Source of the DNA: Aurantimicrobium sp. MWH-Uga1
Lineage (GTDB): Bacteria > Actinomycetota > Actinomycetes > Actinomycetales > Microbacteriaceae
Length of the DNA: 64,000 nt
Direction of reading: 5' to 3'
Assembly (NCBI RefSeq): GCF_003325955.1
Contig: NZ_CP030929.1
Span: 1,364,001-1,428,000 of the forward strand
In this document: piece by piece, positions 40,839 through 61,834 of the stretch
Layout: each line of letters starts with the position of its first letter
Numbering within the stretch: the first letter of the stretch is position 1
The notes under the pieces: model-generated
What the model was told of the DNA's origin: nothing
The model's input: the letters and a program-made list of their open reading frames with translations, nothing else
Databases searched by the model: none
Made by a program: the position numbers and the translations under genes

Positions 40839-40994
40839 TTACTTCTGCTCTTCAGCTGTTCCCCGAAGGACATCTACTTGATGTTCCATCATTTTCGCGA
40901 GCTTATCCATCTTCTGATACTCCTCAGAGGATGAATCAGGACGGCCTGTGGTGGGGTACGAAGCGGCGGGACGTTCACTATTGTGTTCAGACAT
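40839..40994 (-). CDS. Small hypothetical protein (51 residues)
   Basis: Not previously apparent as a large ORF. ATG at 40994 is 9 bases after the alcohol dehydrogenase stop; the Shine-Dalgarno AGGAG overlaps that stop (TAGGAG). The product starts MSEHNSERPAASYPTTGRPD, continues with a charged helix rich in Met, Glu and Lys (EYQKMDKLAKMMEHQVD) and ends RGTAEEQK. No membrane segment or cysteine. It is the last gene of the catabolic hpaE operon; function is unknown. Confidence 0.65.
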   Translation of the reverse strand: MSEHNSERPAASYPTTGRPDSSSEEYQKMDKLAKMMEHQVDVLRGTAEEQK

Positions 40995-41003
40995 CGTCAG
41001 CTC

Positions 41004-42062
41004 CTAAATTGTCTGCGCATCGATGACGAAACGGAATTGGACATCACCTGCGACAACGCGATCATAAGCCTCGTTGATGTAGTCGGCATTGATGAGTTCA
41101 ATATCAGCGACGATGTTGTGTTCACCGCAGAAGTCCAACATTTCTTGGGTCTCACGAGTTGACCCAATCTGAGATCCAGCAATAGAGCGGTGACGTTTCA
41201 TCAACTTAGGCAGCGAGAATGAGTGGGTCATGTTCCCTACTGCACCCACGACGACATAGCTGCCGTCTTGACCAAGGAGGTCAAGGTATGGGTTCATGTC
41301 GTGGTCCCCAGGGAGTGTCGAGATGATGAGATCAAACTTTTCAGCGGCGGCCTTCATTGCATCTTTATCACTTGTGATCAGAACTTCATCTGCACCAAGA
41401 GACTTACACAACTCAACCTTTTCAGGGCTTGTGGTCAATGCGACGGTGTGGGCACCAAGTGCATGTGCAAACTTCACAGCCATGTGTCCAAGACCACCAA
41501 CACCTGCTACTCCGACGGTCTTTCCTGGGCCTGCACCCCAGTGCTTCAAGGGGGAATAGACAGTGATTCCAGCACACAGTAACGGCGCGGCAGCAGCTTT
41601 GTCGAGATTTTCAGGAATGCGGTAGACGAACTTTTCCGTGGTCACGATTTCGCGTGAGTATCCACCATAGGTGAAAGAACCAGGCATGTAGGGATCGGCT
41701 TCGGCATAAGTGAGCAAAGGACCAGCCGGGCCTTGGCAAAAGTGCTCATCTCCTGCAATGCAGTTGTCACATTCTCCACAGCTTTTGACGATAACGCCAA
41801 CACCCACAAGGTCACCAAGGGAATATTTGGTTACCTTGTCGCCGACTTCAACGACGCGACCAATGATTTCGTGACCTGGAACGGCGGGGTAGGGCATATC
41901 TCCCCAATCACCCCGAACGGTGTGAATGTCCGAGTGACAAATTCCTGAGTATTCAATTGCAATGCGCACGTCCTCTGGCAGGACATCACGACGTGTGATT
42001 TCAAATGTTTCCAGAGGTGCTTTTTCTGACTTTGCTCCTACAGCGCGAACCTGAGTGGTCAT
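41004..42062 (-). CDS. Zinc-dependent alcohol dehydrogenase (cinnamyl/YahK type)
   Basis: A medium-chain alcohol dehydrogenase of 352 residues (start ATG 42062 with AAAGG upstream; the frame extends 19 codons further into the reductase gene). Zinc sites: catalytic Cys in SGICHSDIH, GHE, and the structural four-cysteine lobe CGECDNCIAGDEHFC. NAD(P) is bound at VGVAGVGGLGHMAV. YahK-like enzymes reduce or oxidise a broad set of primary alcohols and aldehydes, including aromatic ones, which would fit the ring-cleavage genes upstream. It lies 43 bases downstream of the ferredoxin reductase. Confidence 0.9.
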   Translation of the reverse strand: MTTQVRAVGAKSEKAPLETFEITRRDVLPEDVRIAIEYSGICHSDIHTVRGDWGDMPYPAVPGHEIIGRVVEVGDKVTKYSLGDLVGVGVIVKSCGECDNCIAGDEHFCQGPAGPLLTYAEADPYMPGSFTYGGYSREIVTTEKFVYRIPENLDKAAAAPLLCAGITVYSPLKHWGAGPGKTVGVAGVGGLGHMAVKFAHALGAHTVALTTSPEKVELCKSLGADEVLITSDKDAMKAAAEKFDLIISTLPGDHDMNPYLDLLGQDGSYVVVGAVGNMTHSFSLPKLMKRHRSIAGSQIGSTRETQEMLDFCGEHNIVADIELINADYINEAYDRVVAGDVQFRFVIDAQTI

Positions 42063-42105
42063 GATATGCCTTTCACATCGTTGAGAAGTAAATCTGAATT
42101 TGTAA

Positions 42106-43320
42106 TTATGAAGCTGCAATGCCCACTTTATTGCGGTAACCCATGACTTTCGAACGCATGCCTATTCCGCATACTCCCACCATGTCATCACCCTTGAAAT
42201 ATCCGTAGATGCACTCTCCGCCGACTTCCCCTTCAAGCAGTCGAACGTCTTCACCTTGATCTAACAATCCGTAAGCAAGCAGGCTCACCTCAAATTGATC
42301 ACTCCAGAACGAAGGGATGGGTGCAAAGTTCTTCGCAAGCTCTGTTGCGTGTGCCTCGAGATCTTCTCCCAATTGCAGAGCAACCTGCTTACCAACCTTT
42401 CGTGCCATTTCTGTCGGAATATTCCAGTGCTCAACTCGACGAGTTGTGGGGTCAAACTGTGGGATGGGGAAACGGGCAACATCACCAATTGCATAGACGT
42501 TGCTCCATGGAGTTCCATCTTTGCGAAGTGCGTGCAGTGTGGAATTGACATGAACTCCCGATTCGATGTCAATGTCATTTCCCTCTAAAAACTCGGTGTT
42601 CGGAAGAGAGCCGATGGACTCAATCAGAACATCACATTCCAGAGTTTCCCCGTTATCCAACACAACACCGGTGACCTTCTCCTCCCCCAGGATCTCAGTC
42701 AAAAAAGTATTCATCACAAAGCGAACACCGTGTGCTTCGTGACGACGCTGAATATCTTCAGCAAGCTGCTGCCCAAGCGGACGCAACATAGGAACCGGTC
42801 CCCTGCCTACTACAGTGACAGAGGCACCGAGCTTTGTTGCCGTGGCAGCTGCTTCACATCCGATGAAACCTGCACCGTAGACGACAACCTTCGCCCCTTG
42901 TTTTAGTTCTGCTCTCAGCGCCATTGCGTCATCAAGAGTGCGGATTGCGTGAGCACCAGAATTTGGCTTGCCAGGCAAATCTAGTCTGCGTGGACGAAGG
43001 CCGGTTGCAATAATGAGGCAGCTGTAATCCAGAACCTGACCGTCTGCAAGAGTGACTGATTGTGTGTCAAGATCCGCACTGACGACTGCGTTGCCTAACA
43101 CCCACTCGACATCGTCAAGTACCTCTGAAAGAGGAAAAGCCACGGCGGCGTGGTCTACCTGTTCAGCGAGAACCTCTTTGGACAGCGGTGGTCGGTTATA
43201 GGGAGCGTGTGGTTCGTCGCCAATGACGACCAAACGACCCTCATAACCACTCTTCCGAAGTGTTTCCGCGGCGCGAAGTCCACCCATTGAGGCCCCGACA
43301 ACAATTACGGGACGGGTCAT
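42106..43320 (-). CDS. FAD-dependent ferredoxin reductase for the P450 system
   Basis: A 404-residue reductase of the putidaredoxin/rubredoxin reductase type. N-terminal FAD motif IVVGASMGGLRAAETL; PPLSKEVL; the NAD-binding motif VVYGAGFIGCEAA; and a late FAD-binding VYAIGDVARFP. It would take electrons from NAD(P)H to the [3Fe-4S] ferredoxin encoded 9 bases upstream and so to the cytochrome P450 at 48.2 kb. Similar proteins also serve ring-hydroxylating dioxygenases, but no oxygenase large subunit is present here. Confidence 0.88.
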   Translation of the reverse strand: MTRPVIVVGASMGGLRAAETLRKSGYEGRLVVIGDEPHAPYNRPPLSKEVLAEQVDHAAVAFPLSEVLDDVEWVLGNAVVSADLDTQSVTLADGQVLDYSCLIIATGLRPRRLDLPGKPNSGAHAIRTLDDAMALRAELKQGAKVVVYGAGFIGCEAAATATKLGASVTVVGRGPVPMLRPLGQQLAEDIQRRHEAHGVRFVMNTFLTEILGEEKVTGVVLDNGETLECDVLIESIGSLPNTEFLEGNDIDIESGVHVNSTLHALRKDGTPWSNVYAIGDVARFPIPQFDPTTRRVEHWNIPTEMARKVGKQVALQLGEDLEAHATELAKNFAPIPSFWSDQFEVSLLAYGLLDQGEDVRLLEGEVGGECIYGYFKGDDMVGVCGIGMRSKVMGYRNKVGIAAS

Positions 43321-43329: not shown

Positions 43330-43527
43330 TTAGTCTGCTTTTGTGAAAGAAATTGCCTGCATAGGGCAGATGTCTACTGCGAGCTGGACATTGTCCTGTT
43401 CGCTGTCATCCGCCGTTGCTTCGTATTCCAGCTTGTCGTCATCGTTAAGACGGAATACGTTCGGTGCATCAAATACGCACTGTCCGTAGTGCTGGCACTT
43501 TTCCATGTCGACATGAATCTTGAGCAT
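43330..43527 (-). CDS. [3Fe-4S] ferredoxin (P450 partner type)
   Basis: A 65-residue ferredoxin with three cluster cysteines, C11, C17 and C54 (CQHYGQC and DICPMQAI). The fourth position of a [4Fe-4S] motif is Tyr14 here, so a [3Fe-4S] cluster is expected. Such ferredoxins are classic partners of actinobacterial P450s. It overlaps the FAH gene by one base (TAATG). The nearest P450 is on the opposite strand 4.7 kb away but carries the same operator motif. Confidence 0.93.
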   Translation of the reverse strand: MLKIHVDMEKCQHYGQCVFDAPNVFRLNDDDKLEYEATADDSEQDNVQLAVDICPMQAISFTKAD

Positions 43528-44405
43528 TATTCTTTTTCCTCCACGGTTGATGGATATAGGTCTTTAGAGGGTGTGCGAATTCCGCGGAACTCCCAATCCC
43601 CTCCTAAAGCGGTTGAAATTACTTCTTCACTCTCAGTGGGTTGCGCTCCCACGTCTGTGCGGATCGGAGTGGGGCCGACGACGATGTGGTTAGTCAACCT
43701 ACCGAGGCCTTCAACTTCAACCTCGACAACGTCACCAGGTTGAACCGGACGTGAGAACGCAGGGGTTCCTGAGAAGAGCATGTCACCAGGAACCAAGGTG
43801 ATGGTGCGCGCAATATCTGCAACCAGATAGTGCATGTCCCATTCCATGTTGTCTGTGTTGTCTTCTTGCTTGACCTCGCCGTTGACATAGGTGCGAATCA
43901 TCTTGTTGCGGAAGTCCCAGTCGGTGACCAAACCTGGGCCAACAGGTGCCAGGGTGTCTGATCCCTTCACGCGCAACATGGAGCCTGCGTCGGTGTCGCG
44001 GAAGTCGTGCAGACCGTAGTCGTTACCCACGGTGTATCCGGCGATGTAGTCGCCGGCTTCTTCAGGGCTGATGTTGCGGCAAGTCTTGCCGATCACAATT
44101 ACGATTTCACCCTCATAGTTCAACCACTTGCAGCCTTCGGGGCGCACAACAGCACCTTTGTGGCTGTTGATCGCCGTGATGGGCTTGTGAAAATAGGTGG
44201 GTGCATCAGGGAGCTTGGTCATGAACTCCTTGGTGCGGCTGTCATAGTTCAAGTGAACGGCGATGATCTTGGTGGGCTCCGAAGGCGGCAGGTGTTGCGC
44301 ATCTTCGATAGCCACGCGACGACCGTCGGCGGCAACGAGGAACTCTCCGTCGCGCACGGTTTGCACCGCAGCGCCGTCAAGCAGGATTCGACGATATTCA
44401 GTCAC
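43527..44405 (-). CDS. Fumarylacetoacetate hydrolase-family protein (HpaG-like)
   Basis: A 292-residue FAH-fold enzyme (C-terminal domain from about residue 45). The metal-binding region includes LNYEGEIVIVIGKTCRNISPEEA and NDYGLHDFRD, then KGSDTLAPVGP and LVPGDMLFSGTPAFSRPVQPGD. In homoprotocatechuate degradation the FAH protein HpaG isomerises and decarboxylates the ring-cleavage product, which fits the neighbours hpaD and hpaE. The GTG start overlaps the hpaD stop by 8 bases. Other FAH activities (fumarylpyruvate, acylpyruvate hydrolysis) remain possible. Confidence 0.88.
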   Translation of the reverse strand: MTEYRRILLDGAAVQTVRDGEFLVAADGRRVAIEDAQHLPPSEPTKIIAVHLNYDSRTKEFMTKLPDAPTYFHKPITAINSHKGAVVRPEGCKWLNYEGEIVIVIGKTCRNISPEEAGDYIAGYTVGNDYGLHDFRDTDAGSMLRVKGSDTLAPVGPGLVTDWDFRNKMIRTYVNGEVKQEDNTDNMEWDMHYLVADIARTITLVPGDMLFSGTPAFSRPVQPGDVVEVEVEGLGRLTNHIVVGPTPIRTDVGAQPTESEEVISTALGGDWEFRGIRTPSKDLYPSTVEEKE

Positions 44406-45306
44406 GTGAGAGAACCATATCCTTTGGAAGTGGGAAGCCGCCTTCGGGCTTCGGGAAGTAGATGTGAACCTGACCGGTGCCGACCGAGTTCTCGTAGTCT
44501 GAGTACATCACACCTTTGGAGGTGTTGGCCTCTTCACCAATGGCTCCAGCCATGGTGAGGTAGTGGCTGAAGTTAGCCTCAGGCTTGAACTTGAGGAACT
44601 CAGGCATGGTCTCAAGAACTCGCTTGTGATCTCCAGCTTTGAACCATTCAATGCGCTCTTCATCTGCAGCCCGTGCTTCTGGAGAGAAGATGTGGCTAGG
44701 GTCACTTGCTTCGTGCTTCCGCAAATCACGCAGCTTGTAGAAAGTGTGTGAGAGTGCACCAGAAGCCAAGAGAAGTACCTTGCGGTCTGAGTCACGGATG
44801 GCTTCACCGAGTGCACGACCTGCACGCAGGAAGTCTTCGGTGGTTGCGGTCTGGCACACCGAGACGGAAACCCACCGCTTGTCGAGGCCCTTACCGAGGT
44901 AGTCCCACAGGTTGACGGTGGCATACATAATGGGAAGGTAGGGGTCGGAAATGGGAGTAATCCATGTTCCGTTCTTTTCGTCATACTTGACGACAGACTC
45001 GGCTAGCTCACGGTCACCCCTAAAGGAGTAGGGAATCTGGGACATTCCACGAGGAAGTTCTTCCGCGGTGTACTTCCCCTCTCGGTGATCGTGCGACGTA
45101 ATCACGAACTCGACGGTGGTGGCCCAGTGAGAGTCGAGCACAATCACGGTGTCGTAATCCAGCTTCTCCATCACGTCCTTGCGGAACTTTTCGAAACCAG
45201 GGACAAGAGAGATTTCTTTGCCCTCATTGAGCTCAAGGCGAGTCTCTTTAGGGAGCATGACTGTGGGTACGTGCGCAAGAATTGCTGCGCCTACTACTTC
45301 GCCCAT
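44398..45306 (-). CDS. hpaD: 3,4-dihydroxyphenylacetate 2,3-dioxygenase, class III extradiol
   Basis: A ring-cleaving dioxygenase of the LigB/HpaD superfamily that opens homoprotocatechuate at the meta position. The ATG at 45306 gives MGEVVGAAILAHVP with the metal-binding H12. Further family features are VLDSHW, ITSHDHREG, and SGALSHTF; metal ligands are expected to be two His and one Glu. The product is 302 residues. It starts 2 bases after the hpaE stop. Substrate is assigned from family resemblance and the hpaE neighbour; other catecholic acids are possible. Confidence 0.85.
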   Translation of the reverse strand: MGEVVGAAILAHVPTVMLPKETRLELNEGKEISLVPGFEKFRKDVMEKLDYDTVIVLDSHWATTVEFVITSHDHREGKYTAEELPRGMSQIPYSFRGDRELAESVVKYDEKNGTWITPISDPYLPIMYATVNLWDYLGKGLDKRWVSVSVCQTATTEDFLRAGRALGEAIRDSDRKVLLLASGALSHTFYKLRDLRKHEASDPSHIFSPEARAADEERIEWFKAGDHKRVLETMPEFLKFKPEANFSHYLTMAGAIGEEANTSKGVMYSDYENSVGTGQVHIYFPKPEGGFPLPKDMVLSRD

Positions 45307-45308: not shown

Positions 45309-46772
45309 TTATTCCTTCCATCCATTTGGTGAAACTACGGTGTTCTTTACATCTGCATAGAAGTCGAAGGACCATGTGCCGCCATCGCGACCAATACCCG
45401 ACTTCTTGGATCCCCCGAATGGTGCACGCAGGTCACGAACAAAGAAGCAGTTGACCCAGATAGTTCCGGCCACAATCTCGTCAGTGATCTTCTTGGCGTG
45501 GTCCTTGTTTCCGGAGACGACTACAGCAGCCAGACCAAACTCTGTGCCGTTTGCTTTCTCAATGACTTCCTCATCGGTACTGAAGGTCATCATGCACAGT
45601 ACAGGACCAAAGATTTCGCTAGAGACGATCTCAGAACCGGGGGTTGGGTTCTTCACCAAGGTTGGTTTGAAGAACAGTCCGCCCAACTCTTCATTGGGTT
45701 CACCGCCCCAAACAATCTCTTGACCTTCAGCCTTGGCGCGATCAACAAATCCCTTGACCCGATCAAAGTGGACTTGGTGTATTTGTGGGCCAATGTCGGT
45801 GCCCTCATCACGTGGGTCACCCTGCTTGATTGCGGCCGCCTTTTCTCCAAACTTTTTCGCAAACTCATCAGCCACGTTTTCATGAACGAAAATACGCGTT
45901 CCTGACAGACATACCTGCCCAGCGTTGTCGTATTGTTCAACCGCAATTTCTGCAGCGAGGTCAAGATCTGCATCCTCGAGAACAATCATGGGGCTCTTGC
46001 CGCCGAGCTCGAAGGAGCAGGGTGTCAGGTTGTCAGCTGCTGCACGTGCGATGGCCTTGGCGGTGGGAACTGAGCCAGTGAAGGAGATGCGGTTGATATC
46101 AGGGTGAGCAACCAGCGCTGCTCCAGCTTCTTTTCCGTAACCTTGCACAACGTTGAAGACACCATCGGGAATACCCGCCTGCTTGGTTAAGTCCGCAAAG
46201 AAGGAGGCGCTCAAAGGAGTCCACTCCGCCGGCTTGAGCACGACAGTGTCTCCAGCGGCGAGCGCGGGACCAATCTTCCACGTTGCCAACATCAAGGGTG
46301 CGTTCCACGGAGTGATCAGTGCTGCCACACCGGAAGGGTCCCAGCTGATGTTGTTGGTGTGACCACGAGTTTCGAAGGGCTCATGGTGTAGGTCGTTGAG
46401 TGCCCAGTCTGCGAAGAAACGAATGTTCATTGCCACGCGAGGCATGACTCCCCTGCGGTGGGAGCGCAGTAATGAACCATTGTCCATAGTTTCGAGTTGT
46501 GACAGAGTCTCGTTGTTTTCCTCTACCAGGTCAGCAAGTTTGTGAAGCAGTACGCCGCGACCTTGGGGGCCGAGCTTGGCCCAGGCGGGAAAAGCAGCAC
46601 GTGCTGCTGCAACAGCAGCATCCACCTCTTCTTGCCCACCACGAGAAATTTCTCCGAGGAAAGTTCCGTCAATCGGCGATGTGTTGGTGTAGGTCTGAGC
46701 TGAGGAGACGCGCTGACCGCCAATGTAGTGGCGGGTGTCGATCTCGGCACCGGCGACGCTGATTGTGCTCAT
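45309..46772 (-). CDS. hpaE: 5-carboxymethyl-2-hydroxymuconate-semialdehyde dehydrogenase
   Basis: A 487-residue aldehyde dehydrogenase with ITPWNAPLMLATWKIGPAL, ISFTGSVPTAKAIA, the general base in FELGGKSP and the nucleophilic Cys in AGQVCLSGTR. The MDNGSLLRSHRRGVMPRVAMN segment resembles HpaE-type enzymes. It would oxidise the semialdehyde made by HpaD. It heads a seven-gene minus-strand operon (hpaE, hpaD, FAH, ferredoxin, reductase, alcohol dehydrogenase, small protein). The divergent PuuD-like gene shares an operator-bearing promoter region. Confidence 0.87.
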   Translation of the reverse strand: MSTISVAGAEIDTRHYIGGQRVSSAQTYTNTSPIDGTFLGEISRGGQEEVDAAVAAARAAFPAWAKLGPQGRGVLLHKLADLVEENNETLSQLETMDNGSLLRSHRRGVMPRVAMNIRFFADWALNDLHHEPFETRGHTNNISWDPSGVAALITPWNAPLMLATWKIGPALAAGDTVVLKPAEWTPLSASFFADLTKQAGIPDGVFNVVQGYGKEAGAALVAHPDINRISFTGSVPTAKAIARAAADNLTPCSFELGGKSPMIVLEDADLDLAAEIAVEQYDNAGQVCLSGTRIFVHENVADEFAKKFGEKAAAIKQGDPRDEGTDIGPQIHQVHFDRVKGFVDRAKAEGQEIVWGGEPNEELGGLFFKPTLVKNPTPGSEIVSSEIFGPVLCMMTFSTDEEVIEKANGTEFGLAAVVVSGNKDHAKKITDEIVAGTIWVNCFFVRDLRAPFGGSKKSGIGRDGGTWSFDFYADVKNTVVSPNGWKE

Positions 46773-46802: not shown

Positions 46803-46826
46803 TAATCATTCGTATACTAATGATTA
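46803..46826. promoter_or_regulatory. MarR-box 1 (hpaE / puuD-like divergent promoter)
   Basis: TAATCATT and AATGATTA are perfect 8-base arms around CGTATACT. The spacer has the same length and nearly the same sequence as the four other copies of this motif (N-GTATCC-N). It overlaps the -10 box (TAATAA at 46829-46824, with TTGTGT at 46851-46846) of the hpaE promoter. Confidence 0.75.
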
Positions 46827-46884
46827 TTACTAGGATATAAAAGTCACACAAGATAAATCAGACATTTATTTGAAAGGTGTGCTG

Positions 46885-47583: not shown

Positions 47584-48101
47584 CCTTCGATTTTTGCTGT
47601 GATCGCACGCAGCATGTCTGCTAGGTCACCACGCTTGTTATCAGCAACAGGTGAAACAACTTCAACTTCTTGACGGTTGAAGGCTGGAAACAAAGTCTCC
47701 ATCAAGGTCTGTCCCTTGGTGGTCAACGTGACCAAGACAAGTCGACCGTCTTCTGTGCTGCGAGAACGCAACACAAGGTCCATCTTTTCTAGCGTGCTTA
47801 ACACTCCAGTCAAGGTTGCTTTAGAGATACCGGCTTCTGCTGCGATGTCGCGAGTTTCTGCTGGTTCCCAAATCCAGGTCACCCAGAGAACAACAAAAGC
47901 AGTCCAGCTCAATCCGCTCTCGGCGAGCACATTTCGTTCAAAGTGATTGCGCACAGCACTCGCTGCGCGAAACAAGTTGGAAGTGACAGCCATTGCCTCA
48001 AAGTCGAGCTGCATGTGACTCAAGCGGTTAGCAACGCGTGCTTCGGTTTCGCCGAGTGTGTGGCTTCCAGTCATTTCACCATTCCCAAAAAACTTTCTCA
48101 C
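47580..48101 (-). CDS. MarR-family transcriptional regulator
   Basis: A 173-residue winged-helix regulator: FERNVLAESGLSWTAFVVLWVTW, recognition region RDIAAEAGISKATLTGVLSTLEKMDLVLRSRSTEDGRLVLVTLT and a C-terminal dimerisation helix. MarR proteins usually repress catabolic operons and respond to aromatic acids. The start may be GTG 48101 or ATG 48074. The gene is divergent from the P450 across the operator at 48159-48178, and four more copies of that operator lie in this region, so it is the likely controller of the whole block. Confidence 0.9.
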   Translation of the reverse strand: MRKFFGNGEMTGSHTLGETEARVANRLSHMQLDFEAMAVTSNLFRAASAVRNHFERNVLAESGLSWTAFVVLWVTWIWEPAETRDIAAEAGISKATLTGVLSTLEKMDLVLRSRSTEDGRLVLVTLTTKGQTLMETLFPAFNRQEVEVVSPVADNKRGDLADMLRAITAKIEG

Positions 48102-48158: not shown

Positions 48159-48178
48159 ATTGTTCGTATCCAAACAAT
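48159..48178. promoter_or_regulatory. MarR-box 2 (marR / P450 divergent promoter)
   Basis: ATTGTTCGTATCCAAACAAT: perfect 6-base arms ATTGTT and AACAAT around CGTATCCA. It is immediately before the CTCAATGAGGAGATC leader of the P450 gene and just downstream of likely -10 sequences (TATTAT at 48146-48151). Confidence 0.85.
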
Positions 48179-54441: not shown

Positions 54442-55950
54442 TTAAAGCTTGATATAGGTGGTCTTCAACTCGGTGTACTTATCTAAAGCATGACGTGATT
54501 TGTCGCGCCCATTGCCACTGAGTTTGAAACCGCCGAATGGAACTGTGAGATCTCCTTCTTCGTAGCAATTCACCCAGACAGTTCCAGCCCGAATCTGACG
54601 AGCCAAACGGTGCACCTTAGAGACGTTAGCTGTCCAGAGACCAGCAGCAAGCCCGTAGTCAGAGTTGTTGGCCACACGAATTGCTTCCTCGTCGTCCTTA
54701 ACCGTGGTCACAGAAAGTACTGGTCCAAAAATCTCTTCTTGCGCTAGAGCAGAGTCAGGGTTCACATTGATAAAGACGGTGGGTTCGTAATAGGCGCCGC
54801 CAGCAAGTGGGGCGCTGAGCTCTACTGAGTGACCTCCGAGTGCCAGAGTTGAACCATCTGCAAGACCGCGGTCAACGTGTGCCTGCACTTCAGCACGGCG
54901 TGATGAAGAGGCAAGCGGTCCCATCTTGGTCGCAGGATTGAATGGATCTCCAGGCTTGTAGTTTTCGGCGGCTTTGATAACACCAGCAATAACTTCGTCA
55001 GCGACGTCCTGGTGCACAATCAACCGAGAAGGTGCCGTACACATCTGGCCTGTGTTGAAGAAGATACCCCAGGCAGCTGTGTCGATAGCAGTCTGCAAGT
55101 CTGGAGCATCCGGAAGGATGATGTTCGGTGACTTGCCTCCAAGTTCAAGCCACACACGCTTGAGGTTCGACTGCGCTGCATATTCCATATATGCGCGGCC
55201 GACTTCGGTGGAACCAGTGAAGGCTAGTGAGTCAATGGCGCGGTGAAGACCGAGTCCCTTACCAATGACTGAACCGCGTCCAGGCAATACGTTCAGCACT
55301 CCGGCAGGGATACCGGCCTCGAGTGCCAGTTCTGCAATGCGGACAGCAGTCAGCGGTGTGAGATCAGCAGGCTTGTGAACTACGGTGCAGCCGACAGCCA
55401 GCGCAGGGGCAATCTTCCATGCAGAGAGAGTTAGCGGGAAGTTCCAGGGTGTTACCACGGCAACGACACCCACAGGCTCACGTGTGATGAGTGCGAGGTC
55501 GTCTTCACCTACGGGAGAAATTTCATCCAGATCTTTATCTGCCATCTCGGCATACCAACGATAGGTGTTGATCAATGCTCGAAGTTCAATACCCCATGCG
55601 TCTGCGATGGGCTTTCCCATCTCCACGCTGAGCATGGTAGCAAGCTCCGTGCGGTGCTGCTCCATCAATGCGACCCATGCCAACATGAGCTCTTTACGCT
55701 GCTTTGGTGCCATGCGTGGCCAGGGGCCTTCGTCGAAGGCCCTGCGGGCAGCTACAACTGCTTGCTCGAGTTCATCACTGGTTGCGTATGGAACTTGAGT
55801 AACTGTAGATCCGTCTCGTGGGGTAACCAGTGGAACATACGAGTCGTCTTTGGCCGCTTGTGCTTTGCCATCGATAACCATTGCCTGTGGCCAGGTCAAA
55901 GTATTTGCGTAGTCAGTCCATTCCTGAACACTCTTGGTGGGGAAGTTCAT
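54442..55950 (-). CDS. Aldehyde dehydrogenase (PuuC/betaine-aldehyde type)
   Basis: A 502-residue aldehyde dehydrogenase: VVTPWNFPLTLSAWKIAPALAVG, LAFTGSTEVGRAYM, general base in WLELGGKSPN, nucleophile in TGQMCTAPSR, and FGPVLSVTTV near the end. The family includes gamma-glutamyl-aminobutyraldehyde, betaine-aldehyde and phenylacetaldehyde dehydrogenases. It lies downstream of an alcohol dehydrogenase and across from a gamma-glutamylamine ligase, so an amino-aldehyde or arylacetaldehyde substrate is likely. Confidence 0.9.
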   Translation of the reverse strand: MNFPTKSVQEWTDYANTLTWPQAMVIDGKAQAAKDDSYVPLVTPRDGSTVTQVPYATSDELEQAVVAARRAFDEGPWPRMAPKQRKELMLAWVALMEQHRTELATMLSVEMGKPIADAWGIELRALINTYRWYAEMADKDLDEISPVGEDDLALITREPVGVVAVVTPWNFPLTLSAWKIAPALAVGCTVVHKPADLTPLTAVRIAELALEAGIPAGVLNVLPGRGSVIGKGLGLHRAIDSLAFTGSTEVGRAYMEYAAQSNLKRVWLELGGKSPNIILPDAPDLQTAIDTAAWGIFFNTGQMCTAPSRLIVHQDVADEVIAGVIKAAENYKPGDPFNPATKMGPLASSSRRAEVQAHVDRGLADGSTLALGGHSVELSAPLAGGAYYEPTVFINVNPDSALAQEEIFGPVLSVTTVKDDEEAIRVANNSDYGLAAGLWTANVSKVHRLARQIRAGTVWVNCYEEGDLTVPFGGFKLSGNGRDKSRHALDKYTELKTTYIKL

Positions 55951-55969: not shown

Positions 55970-56935
55970 TTATTCGGCAACGGTGAGGACAACTCGGCCA
56001 CGGATTTCTCCTCGGCGCAAACGGTCGAGTGCTTCTTGTGCGTCGCCGAGTGGCATGGTTTCAACCAGGTGGGCAACCCCCTGCGTCCTAACGAACTCGA
56101 GGAGTTCTTTCATTTCTGCCAGGCTTCCCCAAATGCTTGTGGTGATAACTGCCTCGCTAGGAATGACGCCCACTCCGAACTCGAGACGACCACCTGCAAG
56201 CCCGACCACAACAAGAATGCCCTGGCGATTGACCGCGCCAGCAGCTGCCTGCATTGTGGGGTTTGCTCCCACAAAGTCGATGATGGCGTCATACTTTACC
56301 CCAGCAGGAAGTTCCTTCACTGCGTGATCGGCACCGAGTTCTTTGGCTGCAGCCAGTTTGTCATCTGCCATATCGAGAACGGTGAGTTCAACGTTGGCTA
56401 GCTTCTTAATGAATTGAACCGCAAACTGGCCCAAGCCCCCAGCGCCAATGATGAGTGCTTTCGCCCCTGGAACATTGAGGTGTGGAAGTGTGCGCTTGAC
56501 TGCGCGGAAAGCGGTGAGGCCACCGCACGCAAGTGGCGCCGTTGTTACAGGGTCCAAATCCCCAATGGGAACGAGGTAGTCACGGCTGGGCACACGCATG
56601 TATTCGCTGTAACCACCGTCATCAACAACCCCAGCTTCGTGGCTGTTGGCGCAAATCATTTCTAGGCCTGCGTTGCACTGGCGGCAGTCATCCTTTCGAC
56701 ATCCCCACGGTGCATAAACAAGCACACGACCAAGCTCAGGGTGTTCTCCTACAATTTCGTGACCGAGCACCAGTGGAAGGGGTCCACCAAAGTGGCCATC
56801 AGCAACATGGATGTCTGAGTGGCATACCCCGCAAGCGATGACCTTGATGATTTCTTCACCTGGCTCAGCAGTGGGAATCTCTCGTTCTTCGAAAACTAGT
56901 GGCTTATTTGCTTCCACCAAGACGACAGATTTCAC
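55970..56935 (-). CDS. Zinc-dependent alcohol dehydrogenase, compact form
   Basis: A medium-chain alcohol dehydrogenase. GTG at 56935 follows GGAGG by 4 bases and gives the usual N-terminus MKSVVLVEANKPLVFEEREI; a 33-codon upstream extension has no support. The 321 residues are shorter than usual (about 340-350) because the segment after GHEIVGEHPELGRVLVYAPWG lacks a loop. Zinc ligands are visible in CGVCHSDIH, GHE and CRKDDCRQCNAGLEMIC; the NAD site is ALIIGAGGLGQFAVQF. It is co-transcribed with the aldehyde dehydrogenase 19 bases downstream. Confidence 0.88.
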   Translation of the reverse strand: MKSVVLVEANKPLVFEEREIPTAEPGEEIIKVIACGVCHSDIHVADGHFGGPLPLVLGHEIVGEHPELGRVLVYAPWGCRKDDCRQCNAGLEMICANSHEAGVVDDGGYSEYMRVPSRDYLVPIGDLDPVTTAPLACGGLTAFRAVKRTLPHLNVPGAKALIIGAGGLGQFAVQFIKKLANVELTVLDMADDKLAAAKELGADHAVKELPAGVKYDAIIDFVGANPTMQAAAGAVNRQGILVVVGLAGGRLEFGVGVIPSEAVITTSIWGSLAEMKELLEFVRTQGVAHLVETMPLGDAQEALDRLRRGEIRGRVVLTVAE

Positions 56936-56958
56936 GAGACCTCCACAGTGAGAAATGC

Positions 56959-56995
56959 CCGGCAATAGTTGCCGGAGAAGTAACCCTCGGTTACT
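56959..56995. repeat. Two tandem perfect palindromes between ADH and GS-like 2
   Basis: CCGGCAA-TAG-TTGCCGG (56959-56975) and AGTAACC-CTC-GGTTACT (56979-56995), each with 7-base arms and a 3-base centre, separated by 3 bases. They lie in the 5' leader of the alcohol dehydrogenase and in the shared promoter region. They may be binding sites or RNA hairpins. Confidence 0.6.
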
Positions 56996-57007
56996 GTATA
57001 TATTGTA

Positions 57008-57024
57008 TATCCGATTGAGGGATA
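57008..57024. promoter_or_regulatory. Candidate GntR box (ADH / GS-like 2 divergent promoter)
   Basis: TATCC-GATTGA-GGGATA, inside the longer ATATCC-N7-GGATAT palindrome (57007-57025). It shares TATCC-N6-GGNATA with a site at the acyl-CoA dehydrogenase/gntR divergent promoter (61861-61877). Confidence 0.55.
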
Positions 57025-57046
57025 TGTAACTCAAAGATGAGGAACC

Positions 57047-58390
57047 ATGGCATCACACACCGCTACAGCACCCACAACGATGGCTGATTGCGCGAAAATC
57101 ATCGAGCAAAACCAGATTCACACGGTCGAATGTATCTTCACAGATACATGGGGAATGCCCCGAGGTAAGCGGTTACCGGTTGAACAGTTTCTCTCCGGAG
57201 CAGGATTCGCTATCGCTGCAGTGGCCTTCTCGTGGAACTTCCGCTCGGATGTAGAAGCAACACCGTGGTTTGAGCGCGACATGGGCGCACCAGATATGAA
57301 AGCCATCCCAGATCTGCAGTCTTTCCGCATCGCAGGATGGGAAGAAGGAATGGCGACTGTCATGTGCGACATGGTGGATGGCCACACCGGAGAAGCCATC
57401 ACAATGGATGGTCGCGGCATGCTCAAAAAGACCATCGCAGAATTCGACAAGCTTGGCTACGGCATCAACCTGGCAACGGAGCTCGAGTTCCACCTCTTCA
57501 ACGATGACTGGACTCCCATTTCTGACCAGGCCTATTGCTACTCCATGGACCGTGCTGATGAGCTGGAGAATGTCATTGGCGGGATTCGTCACGCTCTGGA
57601 ACGCTCAGGCATCGAAGTCGAAGCATCCAATGTCGAATATGGGCCATCCCAGATTGAAATCAATCTCAAATACGATGACGCCTTGACCATGGTCGACAAA
57701 ACGATACTGTTCCGCCACATCGTTCGCCGCGTTGCCCGCAAAAACAATCTGCATGCGACCTTCATGGCAAAGCCCATCAACGGAGGCGCTGGTTCCGGAA
57801 TGCACGTTCACCTCAGCCTGACCGATAAGGCAGGTAAGAACTTGTTTGCAGCCAAAGACTCAGACCACGTAGTGCACTCTGACCTGATGAGAAAGTTCCT
57901 GACCGGCGTACTCACACACAACCTGGAACTTCAGATCATTGCGCAACCAACACAAAATGATTACAAGCGCATCGTGGATTACTCGTTCTCCCCCACACAA
58001 GTTTGCTGGGGACTCGACAACCGCTTGGTTGGAGTTCGGTGCATCACTGATGCGGGGCCGGGAACCCGCATGGAAGTTCGATGGGCTGCTGCAGACTCTA
58101 ACCCCTACCTCGTAGCGCAGGGTTATCTCCAAGCAGGACTTGATGGAATTCGGAATAACTACGAACTCATTCCACAAACTATCGGCGACGCCCACCTCGA
58201 TGAGTCGCTCGTGAGGTTTGCCACTTCGATGCGTGACTCTCTAGAAAACTTCTCCAAGAGCACCTGGAACGTTGAGTGCTTCGGTCAAGACTTTGTTGAA
58301 AATTTCACCATCATGCAACAGAACGAAATGGCAGCATTTGCTGCGTGGGTGACTGACTGGGAAACCCAACGATACCGAGACGTCATCTAA
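57047..58390 (+). CDS. Glutamine synthetase-like gamma-glutamylamine ligase (2)
   Basis: A 447-residue GS-family protein, distant from copy 1. N-terminal IIEQNQIHTVECIFTDTWGMPRGKRLP is the beta-grasp start; the catalytic domain has LATELEFHLFN, VEYGPSQIEINLKYDDAL, GAGSGMHVHLSL, NDYKRIVDYSFSPTQVCWGLDNR, and RMEVRWAAADSNPYL. It is closer to PuuA-like and aniline-pathway ligases than to housekeeping GlnA. A GAGGAA Shine-Dalgarno is present. The amidotransferase-like gene follows 13 bases later, the same gene pair seen in aniline-degradation clusters (ligase plus hydrolase). Confidence 0.87.
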   Translation: MASHTATAPTTMADCAKIIEQNQIHTVECIFTDTWGMPRGKRLPVEQFLSGAGFAIAAVAFSWNFRSDVEATPWFERDMGAPDMKAIPDLQSFRIAGWEEGMATVMCDMVDGHTGEAITMDGRGMLKKTIAEFDKLGYGINLATELEFHLFNDDWTPISDQAYCYSMDRADELENVIGGIRHALERSGIEVEASNVEYGPSQIEINLKYDDALTMVDKTILFRHIVRRVARKNNLHATFMAKPINGGAGSGMHVHLSLTDKAGKNLFAAKDSDHVVHSDLMRKFLTGVLTHNLELQIIAQPTQNDYKRIVDYSFSPTQVCWGLDNRLVGVRCITDAGPGTRMEVRWAAADSNPYLVAQGYLQAGLDGIRNNYELIPQTIGDAHLDESLVRFATSMRDSLENFSKSTWNVECFGQDFVENFTIMQQNEMAAFAAWVTDWETQRYRDVI

Positions 58391-58403
58391 CTCAAGGAAC
58401 TCT

Positions 58404-59120
58404 GTGTCAAAAACAATTCTTCTTATCACGCACGAGGAAACCGTTGCATCGGACTATGGTTATGTGGCGGACTATCTGACCGAGCTTGGCCACACAGTTA
58501 TTCATCACGAAGTGCTCAATGCGACCAAAAACTATGACGGGTTCCTCCCCGCCAACACCAACTTCCCCTCCCTGGTCGGTGTTGACTCTGTCATTATTTT
58601 TGGCTCATTCACTCACGCCTACAATCCTGCAACTCGTGCATGGGTCGAAGAAGAAATCGAATTTATACGGACCATACGCGAACGTGGCATTCCCTATCTC
58701 GGCATCTGTTTCGGAGCCCAGCTCCTTGCAGAAGTTCTTGGCGGTCGAACCATCAAGGCAGATCGGATGGAGGTGGGCATGATCGAATTCGATACTTCTG
58801 CCGGATGCCCTACCGCGCCAGGACCCTGGTTCTCATGGCATAACGACATCGTCGAACTCCCTGAGGACGTTGAGATTCTTGCACGCTCCGAAATTGCTCC
58901 CCAGGTTTTCAAAGCCGGAAACTCTTTGGGAGTCCAGTTCCATCCAGAGGTGACAACAGAGCTCATGAACGAGTGGCTTCGTGTTGGCGGAGATGAATTG
59001 ACCGGGACCTACACCGCGGATGAATTCAGGCAAGAATGGAATGCGAAGGGTAAATATGCCCAAGCTCATGGCAGGGAACTCATTGATTGGTTCCTTACCG
59101 TTGAACCTGTCAGCGCATAA
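58404..59120 (+). CDS. Class I glutamine amidotransferase-like hydrolase (2)
   Basis: A 238-residue free-standing amidotransferase-fold protein starting at GTG 58404 behind AAGGA. The nucleophile is the Cys in GICFGAQLLAEVLGG and the base is in GVQFHPEVT. VIIFGSFTHAYNPATRAWVEEE marks the central region. It probably hydrolyses the gamma-glutamyl bond of a product of the upstream ligase after oxidation. It is related to, but clearly distinct from, the copy at 49532-50239. Confidence 0.86.
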   Translation: MSKTILLITHEETVASDYGYVADYLTELGHTVIHHEVLNATKNYDGFLPANTNFPSLVGVDSVIIFGSFTHAYNPATRAWVEEEIEFIRTIRERGIPYLGICFGAQLLAEVLGGRTIKADRMEVGMIEFDTSAGCPTAPGPWFSWHNDIVELPEDVEILARSEIAPQVFKAGNSLGVQFHPEVTTELMNEWLRVGGDELTGTYTADEFRQEWNAKGKYAQAHGRELIDWFLTVEPVSA

Positions 59121-59131
59121 CTTCTGAAATT

Positions 59132-59163
59132 AAGAATCCCCTTTCAGATGAAAGGGGATTCTT
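59132..59163. terminator. Bidirectional terminator
   Basis: AAGAATCCCCTTTC and GAAAGGGGATTCTT form a perfect 14-bp stem with an AGAT loop, between the amidotransferase gene and the convergent gabD. Confidence 0.93.
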
Positions 59164-59185
59164 TGTGCCTTGTGGCGTTGGAGGT

Positions 59186-60664
59186 TTAGAACGTCTCGCG
59201 ACGCTTCATCGTGAAGTAACGAATCTCCTGGTATTCCTCGAGGCCTTCTGCGCCACCTTCACGCCCAGTTCCCGAGGCTTTAACTCCGCCGAACGGTGCG
59301 GCAATATTGGAGAGCAGGCCATTGTTGATTCCCACCATGCCTGTTTCGAGTGCTTCGGCAACGTTGACGGCGCGATCAAGATTTTCGGTGAAAACAAAAG
59401 CTGCAAGACCAAACTCTGTGTCATTTGCCTTTGCAATAACTTCTTCTTGAGTCTTAAAGCGAGATATAGCTGCAACCGGTCCGAAGATTTCTGTCGACGC
59501 AATATCAGCGTTCGCTGGGACGTTATCGAGAACAGTGGGCTCAAAATAGTGGCCTTCACGCTCAGGCGCTTTTCCACCCGTGCGAAGAGTTGCCCCCTTC
59601 GCAATTGCATCATTGACTAGGTGAGTCAAGCGTTGGACTGCACGATCATCGATAACCGGACCCAGATCGACTTCTTTATTCATCGCGTTACCGAGCTTAA
59701 ATGCTGCCATCTTGGCAGTGAAGCCTTCGACAAACGCATCAGCGATGCCTTCTTGAATAAACATACGGTTGGCAGCCACACATGTTTGTCCACCGTTACG
59801 CATCTTGGCCAAAATGGCTCCGTCAATGGCGCGCTCTAGGTCAGCATCATCAAAAACAATGAGTGGCGCATTACCGCCGAGCTCCATGGAGCTCTTGACA
59901 ATGTTCTTTGCCGCCAGCTCCATCAGTGTGGAACCAACGGGAGTTGAGCCAGTAAATGAAATCTTGCGAACTCGCTGGTCAGCCAACAGGGTTGAGCTGA
60001 AACCAGGGGCATCAGTTGTGGTGATGACCTGAACGAGGTCTTCAGGGACACCTGCCTGAACCATCAAATCCTGCACAACAACAGTGGTCAGTGGTGTGAG
60101 GTTGGCAGGCTTAACCACACAGGCACAGCCCGCCGCGAGCGCTGGTGCAATCTTTCGCGTGGCCATTGCCATGGGGAAATTCCAGGGGGCAATCAACACT
60201 GCATTACCGACAGGAGCGCGACGAACCAATATGGTGGCATCCCCCGCAGGCGAGTCTCGGTAGAGCCCCTGTGCACGCAACGCTTCCTCAGCAAACCACC
60301 GTACATAATCTGCGGAGTATTGAACCTCTGCATACCCTTCTGCAAGAGGCTTACCCATCTCACGAGAGATGATGTAGGCGAGGGTGTCTTTGTTTTCAAT
60401 CAGCTTGGCGTAAACGGCATGGAGTGTGTCCGAGCGCAGGCGGGGGCTGGTGCGAGCCCACTTCTTTCCAGCTGCGTCAGCCTTCGCAAGAGCCGTGAGT
60501 GCATCAGCTGGGGTGTGGTCAGGAAGAGTGCCAATGACCTTTTCAGTTGCTGGATCAATGACATCAAATGTCTTCGCTGCTGGAAGTAGCCGTGCTGTGC
60601 TGATGCTTGCAAGCGCTTTGTCCGATGCCGCTAAAAGATCGGCATCTGGTTCGAAGTACGACAT
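59186..60664 (-). CDS. gabD: Succinate-semialdehyde dehydrogenase
   Basis: Oxidises succinate semialdehyde to succinate, the last step of GABA and putrescine degradation. The 492 residues show LIAPWNFPMAMATRKIAPAL, ISFTGSTPVGSTLM, the general base in MELGGNAPLIVFDDADLE and the nucleophile in NGGQTCVAANRM, all characteristic of GabD-type enzymes. It is 15 bases downstream of the acyl-CoA dehydrogenase in the same operon, tying it to the GntR box region. Confidence 0.9.
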   Translation of the reverse strand: MSYFEPDADLLAASDKALASISTARLLPAAKTFDVIDPATEKVIGTLPDHTPADALTALAKADAAGKKWARTSPRLRSDTLHAVYAKLIENKDTLAYIISREMGKPLAEGYAEVQYSADYVRWFAEEALRAQGLYRDSPAGDATILVRRAPVGNAVLIAPWNFPMAMATRKIAPALAAGCACVVKPANLTPLTTVVVQDLMVQAGVPEDLVQVITTTDAPGFSSTLLADQRVRKISFTGSTPVGSTLMELAAKNIVKSSMELGGNAPLIVFDDADLERAIDGAILAKMRNGGQTCVAANRMFIQEGIADAFVEGFTAKMAAFKLGNAMNKEVDLGPVIDDRAVQRLTHLVNDAIAKGATLRTGGKAPEREGHYFEPTVLDNVPANADIASTEIFGPVAAISRFKTQEEVIAKANDTEFGLAAFVFTENLDRAVNVAEALETGMVGINNGLLSNIAAPFGGVKASGTGREGGAEGLEEYQEIRYFTMKRRETF

Positions 60665-60679
60665 TGTCCTTCTCTTTCT

Positions 60680-61834
60680 TTAGAGCCCACCGCGGGCAAT
60701 TAGTTGCTGGGCGATGACGTTTTTCTGAATTTCATTGGTGCCCTCACCAACAATCATCAACGGAGCATCACGGAAGTAGCGCTCAACATCGTATTCGGTT
60801 GAGTAGCCATAACCTCCATGAATGCGAATTGCGTTCAGAGCTATCTCCATTGCAACTTCAGAGGCATACAGCTTGGCCATGCCAGCTTCCATGTCACAAC
60901 GCTCACCGCTTTCATATTTCTCTGCAGCAAAGAGTGTGAGCTGTCGCGCTGCGGTGAGCTTCGTTGCCATCTCTGCCAGGTAGTTACCTATAGATTGGTG
61001 CTTCCAAATGGGCTTGCCAAAGGTTTCTCTCTCCTGCGCATATTTGATGGAATCTTCCAACGCCGCTGCTGCTACACCGAGAGATCGAGCAGCAACCTGA
61101 ATACGGCCAACCTCCAGACCTTTCATGAATTGAGTGAACCCCTTACCTGGTTCACCACCAAGAATTTGGGTTACTGGTGTGCGATAGTCATCGAAGGAAA
61201 TCTCACACGACTCAACACCCTTGTATCCCAATTTGGGGAGATCCCGGGAGACGTTGAAGCCAGGTCCCGGCTCAACAAGAATGATGGACATCCCAGTATG
61301 ACGGGGCTCTGCAGCTGGATCGGTCTTTGCTAACAGTGCAATCAATCCCGAACGGCGCGCATTTGAAATCCAAGTTTTTGATCCGTTGATAACAAGATCA
61401 TCACCATCTGTTTTTGCAACTGTGGCGATTGCTTGGAGGTCTGAACCACCACTGGGTTCTGTCAATGCCATTGTGGCGCGAAGCTCTCCGGTTGCCATCA
61501 ATGGCAAGTACTTGCTCTTTTGTTCTTCGGTTCCATAGAGGGTCAGCAACTTGGCAACAACGGTGTGACCACCCATTGCTCCCGAGAGGCTCATCCATCC
61601 ACGCGCAAGTTCCTCGGTGACCTGGACATAGGCAGGCATAGAAATGGGGAGACCGTCATATTCCTCGGGAACTGCAAGCCCATAGATACCCATTTCTTTC
61701 ATCTGTTCAATCCACGCTTCGGGGTATTCATTCGCGTGTTCAACTTCGTTGACTGTGGGCTTTACATCGCGGTCAATAAATGCTCGAACGGTGTCGACGA
61801 GCATCTGTTCTTCGTCGTTGAGATGTGAGGTCAT
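60680..61834 (-). CDS. Acyl-CoA dehydrogenase
   Basis: A 384-residue flavoprotein starting at ATG 61834 (MTSHLNDEEQMLVDTVRAFI). The frame runs 51 codons further but through the promoter. Three domains are evident: the N-terminal helical part; the beta domain with MALTEPSGGSDLQAI and KTWISNARRSG; and the C-terminal part with RIQVAARSLGVAAAALEDSI and IHGGYGYSTEYDVERYFRDA, which contains the catalytic Glu/Gly region. It would reduce ETF encoded on the opposite strand. The substrate might be a short acyl-CoA; an amine-derived substrate is a speculative alternative. Confidence 0.9.
   Translation of the reverse strand: MTSHLNDEEQMLVDTVRAFIDRDVKPTVNEVEHANEYPEAWIEQMKEMGIYGLAVPEEYDGLPISMPAYVQVTEELARGWMSLSGAMGGHTVVAKLLTLYGTEEQKSKYLPLMATGELRATMALTEPSGGSDLQAIATVAKTDGDDLVINGSKTWISNARRSGLIALLAKTDPAAEPRHTGMSIILVEPGPGFNVSRDLPKLGYKGVESCEISFDDYRTPVTQILGGEPGKGFTQFMKGLEVGRIQVAARSLGVAAAALEDSIKYAQERETFGKPIWKHQSIGNYLAEMATKLTAARQLTLFAAEKYESGERCDMEAGMAKLYASEVAMEIALNAIRIHGGYGYSTEYDVERYFRDAPLMIVGEGTNEIQKNVIAQQLIARGGL

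Follow-up and report, generated by a model that had tools for sequence, protein, structure and literature searches.

The question raised by this locus is why genes resembling those of polyamine gamma-glutamylation (Puu) stand among genes resembling those of homoprotocatechuate meta-cleavage (Hpa) in Aurantimicrobium sp. MWH-Uga1 (G000; 1.61 Mb, single contig). The window, the whole stretch of DNA analysed, comprises 64,000 nucleotides of that genome (G000:C1:1364001-1428000). Its conserved, operator-bearing core (41004-54313; Table 1) encodes (i) an APC-family permease, (ii) an enzyme of the acetoacetate decarboxylase superfamily (ADC), (iii) a glutamine synthetase (GS)-like ligase (GS1) and a class-I glutamine amidotransferase (GATase)-like protein (GAT1), (iv) a cytochrome P450, a ferredoxin (Fdx) and a reductase (FdR), (v) a MarR-family regulator, (vi) a PuuD-like hydrolase (C26), and (vii) an HpaE-like aldehyde dehydrogenase (ALDH), a LigB-type dioxygenase and a decarboxylase of the FAH family. 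The cluster looks like an undescribed way to degrade tyramine- or dopamine-like amines, and we lean slightly towards reading it as a catabolic unit under MarR control that serves arylethylamines of the tyramine/dopamine class, with the amine capped by glutamate throughout ring opening.

Open reading frames (ORFs) and family profiles place in the window all genes named by the first-pass annotation of this DNA, including two GS-like ligases with a class-I GATase adjoining each, two alcohol dehydrogenases (ADHs), a PuuC-like and a GabD-like ALDH, the APC permease and the ADC-superfamily gene. That annotation treated the region as one unit, which holds for the core and fails for the block comprising GS2, GAT2, ADH2 and the GabD-like gene, located outside the conserved core and devoid of operator.

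Conservation of the core in relatives

Scanning a genome collection with a LigB alignment returns 532 relatives, the best (closest) 80 of which are used as loci, the closest named ones being those of Aurantimicrobium minutum strains. Full context, defined as at least 8.8 kb upstream and at least 2.5 kb downstream of LigB, is available for 45 of the 80 loci. GS1, ADC, P450, MarR, HpaE, FAH and FdR each occur in 45/45 of these, accompanied by Fdx in 44, GAT1 in 43, APC in 40 and C26 in 25, the last count made up of 23 at the usual place and two, at 36% identity, in other parts of the locus (L055, L060). Four of the five full-context loci lacking APC are cut inside or next to ADC. The cluster is common to many freshwater and marine actinobacteria, and chance clustering was rejected in view of the genes present in 45/45 full-context loci. 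For the first-pass annotation, a lack of co-occurrence of ligase, P450 and hpa-like genes in relatives would have spoken against the pathway; the three occur together in every full-context locus, with a shared operator.

Among 99 genomes of relatives, LigB occurs in 11, seven of which belong to one genus and are therefore not independent. ADC (at least 57% identity) is found in 10 of these 11 and in no other of the 99; the LigB genome without it, G045, has a contig ending inside the P450 gene, and an eleventh ADC match, in G018, reaches 32% only. P450 (at least 50%) occurs in all 11 genomes (in G045 as a piece) and in G019, and the congener G004 displays no LigB, no ADC and a P450 match at 30% only. 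When 72,556 plasmids are searched, LigB (at least 58%), ADC (at least 55%) and FAH (at least 74%) fall in the same five records, comprising two Streptomyces, two Embleya and one Novosphingobium, and the next-best matches drop to 36%, 41% and 50%, respectively. The plasmid locus of Novosphingobium EMRT-2, an alphaproteobacterium, comprises relatives of the ligase (33%), P450 (40%), LigB (58%), HpaE (48%), FAH (74%) and ADC (55%), alongside another ALDH and a MarR gene. In G063, the gene directly upstream of HpaE, on the same strand, is ADC. Gene-to-gene distance correlations (0.40-0.90), in which phylogeny is uncontrolled, are not used as evidence.

Operator palindrome and predicted regulon

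A 20-bp palindrome close to ATCGTTNGGATACNAACGAT occupies five sites, found in all four divergent core promoters of the window. The pattern RTTNGTATMCNAAYRAT, with at most 2 mismatches, matches the window 11 times versus 0.58 expected, ten of the matches being the five sites read on both strands. A matrix built from these sites matches the window by construction and is not independent of congeneric loci; its matches were counted over the 80 loci in gaps of 30-600 bases, for those kinds of gap that occur at least 10 times. The operator is present in the gaps ADC-APC (47/48), GAT1-GS1 (56/58), MarR-P450 (64/65), C26-HpaE (42/43) and, where C26 is absent, HpaE-MarR (28/29), and in 0/101 of the other core gaps (ADC-GS1, 0/31; GAT1-P450, 0/18; C26-MarR, 0/16; FAH-LigB, 0/12; FdR-Fdx, 0/24). 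One MarR regulon over the core is predicted from this shared palindrome. Two weaker matrix matches in the E. coli hpaR-hpaG gap are in keeping with an HpaR-like regulator.

The 1.23 Mb of loci contain 17 further matches, not above the rate of 1-2 per 64 kb obtained at the threshold used from shuffles that move two-base blocks, approximating dinucleotide shuffling; 13 are intergenic, beside MarR, ADC, HpaE or PuuC or past the APC gene; of the other four, three fall within genes and one stands alone. The operator occurs between PuuC and HpaE in Streptomyces lunaelactis and Embleya, with sites also in the G063 and G091 loci, and the matrix search of the window finds none at GS2, GAT2, ADH2 or PuuC. 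Two loci, L067 and L101 (first 1.1 kb), display an operator past APC, upstream of an aspartate ammonia-lyase gene (above the PRK12273 cut-off), and a regulon of this type may take in amino-nitrogen disposal.

Ring-fission enzymes and hpa steps

The canonical route leads from homoprotocatechuate through HpaD, HpaE, HpaF/HpaG, HpaH and HpaI to pyruvate and succinic semialdehyde. Key proteins of the window score below the NCBIfam cut-offs and are therefore relatives, not textbook members, of the Hpa, Puu and GS-like families. LigB misses the HpaD_Fe equivalog cut-off (130.1 versus 315.95 bits), the HpaE-like ALDH that of HpaE (TIGR02299; 523.5 versus 638 bits), FAH that of the HpaG C-terminal model (208 versus 276 bits), MarR that of HpaR (TIGR02337; 59 versus 121 bits), both ligases that of GGputSyn/PuuA (GS1 244 and GS2 217 versus 650 bits) and the GabD-like ALDH that of the succinic semialdehyde dehydrogenase subfamily (522 versus 646 bits). 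PuuC is the best model for the ALDH at 54442-55950, and gamma-glutamyl-gamma-aminobutyrate (GABA) hydrolase the best NCBIfam model for C26, both below cut-off (531 versus 850 and 76 versus 266 bits, respectively).

Matches to E. coli HpaF, HpaH, HpaB and HpaC are absent from the window and from the 91 clade stretches (not all distinct, some being fragments of one locus and some genomes appearing twice); HpaI gives one match in this set, at 32% (G063). The comparison set comprises 10 plasmid loci chosen from 48 matches: HpaF, HpaH and HpaI occur in 8/10 each, one of them the query's own, HpaB lies within reach in only 2/10, and ADC, GS1 and P450 occur in 0/10. The distribution of ADC is complementary to that of HpaH/HpaI. 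The FAH gene is the only FAA_hydrolase match in G000, leaving this genome without a relative of HpaH in that family. HpaB (PF03241) is found in 0/11 cluster genomes, with 4/14 controls positive; the CHMI (HpaF) family search matched no control, and the HpaF negative therefore holds for the loci only. Two HpcH/HpaI-family genes of G000 (C1:375279 and C1:1430713), over cut-off, were discarded as HpaI candidates; tblastn with E. coli HpaI leaves them unmatched at 1e-4. One member of the comparison set, L122 (Sphingobium plasmid, 7567-16410), represents a third kind of LigB cluster, with 36% identity to the window LigB, with HpaH and HpaI, and without ligase.

Residue counts omit rows that contain an internal stop or fall short of a length cut, leaving in one count 71 LigB, 80 HpaE and 80 FAH rows of at most 87 candidates, and in a second, with the same filter, 65 LigB, 53 ADC, 58 GS1 and 62 P450 rows of at most 81. 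LigB residues H35, H83, H210 and E266 (ORF numbering), which we take to be the Fe ligands and catalytic His from their roles in the LigB family, are kept in 65/65 rows; at the Glu, the MAFFT alignment is shifted by one column, placing Ala opposite E. coli E238, and the HMMER alignment pairs Glu with Glu. A tree of 25 rows splits the clade LigB from HpaD by long branches (support 94/93), with L122 beside it, on a long branch. The basic residues lost in the clade include (i) HpaE R277, before the catalytic Cys, which is R in 8/8 comparison rows and V in 80/80 clade rows, together with R261 and K239; (ii) LigB H65 and H116 (E. coli numbering), lost in 71/71 clade rows, with H36, K9, R29 and R42 also among those lost; and (iii) in FAH, numbered from residue 201 of E. 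coli HpaG, H74 (N in 80/80), R119 (G in 80/80) and R127 (S in 74, A in 6). The loss of basic residues with the catalytic ones kept fits a side chain without carboxylate, as supporting evidence only, since L122 shares such changes.

The ADC-superfamily enzyme and the P450

ADC clears the PF06314 cut-off (192 versus 29.8 bits) and misses that of the MppR equivalog (185.9 versus 380 bits). K126, presumably the alignment place of the MppR active-site lysine, is at the catalytic-Lys position in 53/53 rows. The closest solved relatives are MppR (4jm3, E 1.3e-49) and Swit_4259, homologues that share this position with the window ADC, which, unlike them, is proposed to work in the catabolic hydratase/retro-aldol direction. 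An excerpt of PMC10367076 assigns MppR an active-site lysine, and the available text of PMC7820114 describes the condensation of pyruvate with an aldehyde by MppR, as well as two ADC-superfamily proteins, Sso1221/1222, which are 77- and 82-fold up on phenol and proposed as meta-pathway aldolase in archaeal phenol degradation. ADC is a natural candidate for the combined role of HpaH and HpaI.

The P450 displays the AGHET motif with E and T in 62/62 rows, and its heme region, TFGRGGPHMCLG, was identified by eye, the strict motif giving no match. In other lineages, L023 (G091; 17580-19665) encodes a VanB-like reductase and a VanA-like Rieske oxygenase in the P450-ADC interval, and L121 (Streptomyces canus plasmid; 16684-27053) a second P450 with ferredoxin, an F420-type LLM oxidoreductase and GcvT-like/purU/folD genes by the cluster. 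The VanA/VanB-type genes and these C1/demethylation genes hint at the use of methoxylated amines in some lineages.

Ligases, hydrolases and GABA-side genes

Two features of the GlnA encoded by the same genome, the FDGSS loop and the YEAP Glu, which we assume to be ammonium-site residues, are absent from the aligned GS1 and GS2, with Leu at the place of the YEAP Glu in 58/58 GS1 rows, as expected of amine ligases of the GoaS type (GS fold, ammonium-site residues gone). A portion of PMC11335346 gives this class of GS-like ligase the name GoaS and describes the GATase partner in aniline systems as hydrolysing the amide, thereby limiting amide toxicity; GAT1 could act in this way, or stand in for C26.

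PuuC-like genes occur in 11/39 genome handles (G029 and G126 being one genome), with 12 matches, of which nine surely share a contig with LigB and lie within 20 kb of it, two are presumed to do so from contig numbers and one is elsewhere. The PuuC-like and C26 genes are neighbours in S. lunaelactis and Embleya, where they also border on HpaE-LigB-FAH; in S. canus the two genes overlap, at a distance of about 5 kb from FAH, past its end. An aminobutyraldehyde dehydrogenase gene (610.6 versus a cut-off of 615) lies 0.3 kb past FdR in L084 and is present in four loci (L076, L082, L084 and L111; at least 67% to the L084 gene). In Alpinimonas L041, a GABA transaminase gene (GabT), above its cut-off, follows FdR at a distance of 1.7 kb, with an ORF of the opposite strand in between; L040 has a counterpart. 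Group-II pyridoxal phosphate (PLP) decarboxylases of three kinds are found in 18/80 loci, their sequences giving no substrate; the one in Salinibacterium L072 lies right behind the P450, on the same strand, and a tyrosine-decarboxylase-like gene behind FAH in S. lunaelactis (129 versus 905 bits) is only a lead.

Proposed pathway and alternatives

From these genes we infer a substrate, an order of steps, a regulation and an activity for every enzyme. The amine would be imported by APC or, in some lineages, produced by a decarboxylase, and capped by GS1 (tyramine to gamma-Glu-tyramine), after which P450, Fdx and FdR would add the second ring hydroxyl, or O-demethylate a methoxylated analogue, to give gamma-Glu-dopamine. 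LigB would open the ring, the HpaE-like ALDH oxidise the semialdehyde and FAH decarboxylate the product; ADC, replacing HpaH and HpaI, would perform hydration and retro-aldol cleavage to pyruvate and gamma-Glu-4-aminobutyraldehyde. The latter is the PuuC substrate of the Puu route, which a PuuC-type ALDH would convert into gamma-Glu-GABA, C26/GAT1 would split into GABA and glutamate, and GabT/GabD would finish. With a side chain CH2-CH2-NH-gamma-Glu in place of CH2-COOH, the same chemistry would end in pyruvate and gamma-Glu-4-aminobutyraldehyde, and Puu-type and Hpa-type genes would stand together because the carbon count yields the PuuC substrate.

The wider proposal holds that a catecholamine ring is broken while gamma-glutamyl-protected, that ADC replaces HpaH and HpaI, that the route converges on the polyamine intermediate gamma-glutamyl-aminobutyraldehyde, bypassing 3,4-dihydroxyphenylacetate, and that one MarR regulon extends from freshwater ultramicrobacteria to Streptomyces; we regard it as evenly poised. 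If true, polyamine gamma-glutamylation and homoprotocatechuate meta-cleavage would be joined via one shared intermediate, one branch of the ADC superfamily would gain a physiological role, and streamlined freshwater actinobacteria a source of nitrogen and carbon. Genome editing is reported, in the abstract of PMC11577799, for Rhodoluna lacicola and Aurantimicrobium photophilum; the cultured strains that carry the cluster include Salinibacterium amurskyense, Alpinimonas psychrophila and Aurantimicrobium minutum.

The first-pass annotation had suggested tyramine/dopamine-like arylethylamines as a plausible class, giving 3,4-dihydroxyphenylacetate for HpaD. Arylethylamines stay the best-fitting class, in view of the C4-aminoaldehyde/GABA genes and of the decarboxylases that recur by some clusters. 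Free 3,4-dihydroxyphenylacetate is less likely as the substrate of ring cleavage, because it needs prior deamination, yet the cluster contains no amine oxidase, and because HpaF and HpaH are absent from the loci (HpaI giving the single match noted above) and the basic residues of HpaD, HpaE and HpaG are gone.

Several observations weigh against ring opening under a gamma-glutamyl cap. The G019 locus (L028, 1260-5598) has ligase, GATase, P450, MarR, Fdx and FdR without ring-fission genes, gaps of about 150 bp replacing ADC (APC-GS1 interval) and C26-HpaE-LigB-FAH (MarR-Fdx interval). ADC lies about 51 kb from GS1 in the congener G005 (G005:C1:1478577-1529891), a distance that in an otherwise compact cluster suggests insertion or rearrangement. 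No P450 is found in the S. lunaelactis stretch of 32.9 kb, and pSLUN1 is not among the matches listed (15 of 1346). The closest solved relatives of the P450 include lipid/steroid hydroxylases, not phenol hydroxylases. L122, with HpaH/HpaI and without ligase, likewise has Val preceding the catalytic Cys and differs from the other comparison rows at most of the listed LigB basic positions. No operator was found outside a gene in Novosphingobium, and S. canus gives one weak match. On the GABA side, C26 is absent from its usual place in 22/45 loci, 20 of which have GAT1; PuuC is not found in 28/39 genome handles at E 1e-120 and stands without operator in the window; and GabT is also present in G004, a genome without the cluster. 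Finally, a known alternative exists, the deamination of tyramine and phenylethylamine by amine oxidase in Arthrobacter, as described in an excerpt of PMC2991359.

Such deamination could precede ring cleavage here, by P450 oxidation of the capped amide next to the nitrogen or by an unlinked amine oxidase, leading via the arylacetaldehyde and an ALDH to 3,4-dihydroxyphenylacetate for LigB and eventually to succinic semialdehyde for GabD. Besides the Arthrobacter precedent, LigB, HpaE and MarR score best to Hpa models, a GabD-like gene lies in the window, and G000 encodes an amine-oxidase-family protein (G000:C1:1557198-1558448). Flavin amine-oxidase-family matches occur in 11/11 cluster genomes and copper amine oxidase in 1/11 (G029), but neither G005 nor G006, both with the cluster, has a strong counterpart to the strong flavin-type gene of G000 (best PF01593 92-94 bits). 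Deamination would moreover leave the PuuC and C26 pairs, the aminobutyraldehyde dehydrogenase and the GabT beside clusters unexplained, and it sits ill with the loss of the conserved HpaD, HpaE and HpaG basic residues; we consider it rather unlikely. The same logic might serve another substrate, either an aromatic amino acid (tyrosine/DOPA) or an arylalkylamine with methoxy or N-methyl groups, which the P450 would demethylate. The VanA/VanB-type genes of G091 and the second P450 and C1 genes of S. canus point this way; the demethylation genes stand outside the conserved core, however, and decarboxylases beside the cluster in 18/80 loci point to an amine, making this option distinctly unlikely.

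It would be very improbable that two functions merely lie side by side, with ligase, GATases and P450 detoxifying or storing amines and LigB-HpaE-FAH-ADC degrading an unrelated catechol. The G019 locus is the ligase/P450 part by itself and fits this division, although its lack of HpaE-LigB-FAH and of ADC alike is counted for ring opening of the capped amine; LigB and ADC are not found elsewhere in that genome (82% complete, 180 contigs), where HpaE and FAH were not searched genome-wide. Against two separate functions stand the palindrome common to the divergent core promoters, the near-perfect co-conservation, and Novosphingobium, which holds relatives of ligase, P450, LigB, HpaE, FAH and ADC together. 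An aniline-type aromatic amine was rejected as substrate, the core having no Rieske oxygenase and a ring nitrogen not being expected to give a C4 aminoaldehyde.

Comparison with known systems

The Puu pathway resembles the cluster at both ends, with a GS-like ligase, a PuuC-like ALDH, a C26 gamma-glutamyl hydrolase and, as proposed here, a GABA exit; on the other hand, aromatic ring hydroxylation and cleavage would occupy the middle of the cluster's route, no PuuB-type oxidase is seen in the cluster, and its ligase is far below the PuuA cut-off. The hpa meta-cleavage pathway resembles the cluster in its HpaE-, HpaG-decarboxylase- and HpaR-like proteins and LigB dioxygenase, and the chemistry would be shared as far as the decarboxylated dienoate; the cluster differs in its ADC-superfamily enzyme, its long-branch LigB and the absence of HpaB, HpaF and HpaH matches in the clade stretches. 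In the isopropylamine pathway (Ipu) of strain KIE171, attributed to de Azevedo Wasch 2002, the gamma-glutamyl amide is reportedly oxidised while capped; unlike the cluster, Ipu is aliphatic and without ring cleavage. Aniline and 1-naphthylamine degradation (AtdA, NpaA; GoaS) likewise comprises a GS-like amide synthetase beside a GATase-like enzyme, followed by an oxygenase, according to the available text of PMC11335346, whereas the cluster has a P450 in place of the Rieske dioxygenase (none of the core proteins scanned matches a Rieske family), GABA-side genes and HpaD-type ring cleavage. Among the open-licence papers listed, subscription work being mostly outside their range, none concerned bacterial gamma-glutamyl-tyramine/dopamine catabolism, which is no proof of novelty.

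Feature coordinates and neighbouring genes

Table 1. Features of the locus, in window coordinates
Feature	Coordinates	Strand	Model or remark
ADH, zinc alcohol dehydrogenase (Ahr-like), accessory	41004..42119	-	Pfam ADH_N/ADH_zinc_N
FdR, ferredoxin reductase, presumed P450 partner	42106..43320	-	Pyr_redox_2, HcaD-like
Fdx, small ferredoxin (CxxYxxC...CP), presumed P450 partner	43330..43527	-	Fer4_13/Fer4_15
FAH-family decarboxylase, HpaG C-terminal-like	43527..44405	-	FAA_hydrolase
LigB-type extradiol dioxygenase	44398..45306	-	PF02900; ORF opens at 45375
HpaE-like semialdehyde dehydrogenase	45309..46772	-	TIGR02299 best model
Operator palindrome, HpaE/C26 interval	46805..46824
C26 gamma-glutamyl hydrolase, PuuD-like	46870..47583	+	PF07722, 148 bits
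MarR-family regulator, HpaR-like	47580..48101	-	TIGR02337
Operator palindrome, MarR/P450 interval	48159..48178
Cytochrome P450	48197..49435	+	PF00067
GAT1, class-I GATase-like hydrolase	49532..50272	-	PF00117; PRK07053-like
Operator palindrome, GAT1/GS1 interval	50318..50337
GS1, GS-like amine ligase	50375..51727	+	PF00120
ADC, acetoacetate-decarboxylase-superfamily enzyme, proposed hydratase/retro-aldolase	51812..52627	-	PF06314
Operator palindromes 1 and 2, ADC/APC interval	52645..52664; 52768..52787
APC-family amine/amino acid permease	52817..54313	+	PF00324/PF13520
Terminator-like stem 3' of the APC gene	54329..54359
PuuC-like aldehyde dehydrogenase	54442..55950	-	Best NCBIfam PuuC; beside core in some lineages
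Lineage-specific add-on: ADH2 (-), GS2 (+, 57047..58390), GAT2 (+, 58404..59120), GabD-like (-)	55970..60664

The start of LigB is probably that given in Table 1 rather than the opening of its ORF, judging from a conserved MGEVVG start. The accessory ADH occurs in 4/80 loci and is known from Aurantimicrobium loci and L092. The GS2/GAT2/ADH2/GabD block was not found beside the core in the two congeners fetched far enough (G002, G006) and is complete only in G003 among the relatives' stretches fetched; the GS2 module may serve another amine. Upstream of the core, a PLP group-II decarboxylase gene followed by an agmatine-deiminase-like gene (38313-40836), without operator and near the cluster in Aurantimicrobium and Alpinimonas, is possibly an amine-producing pair; it was rejected as part of the core, its type of decarboxylase occurring in only 4/80 loci and the operator being absent. 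Further upstream, an aminotransferase (34336-35541) matches the guanitoxin GntC model with 310 bits (cut-off 415) and aspartate transaminases with higher scores.

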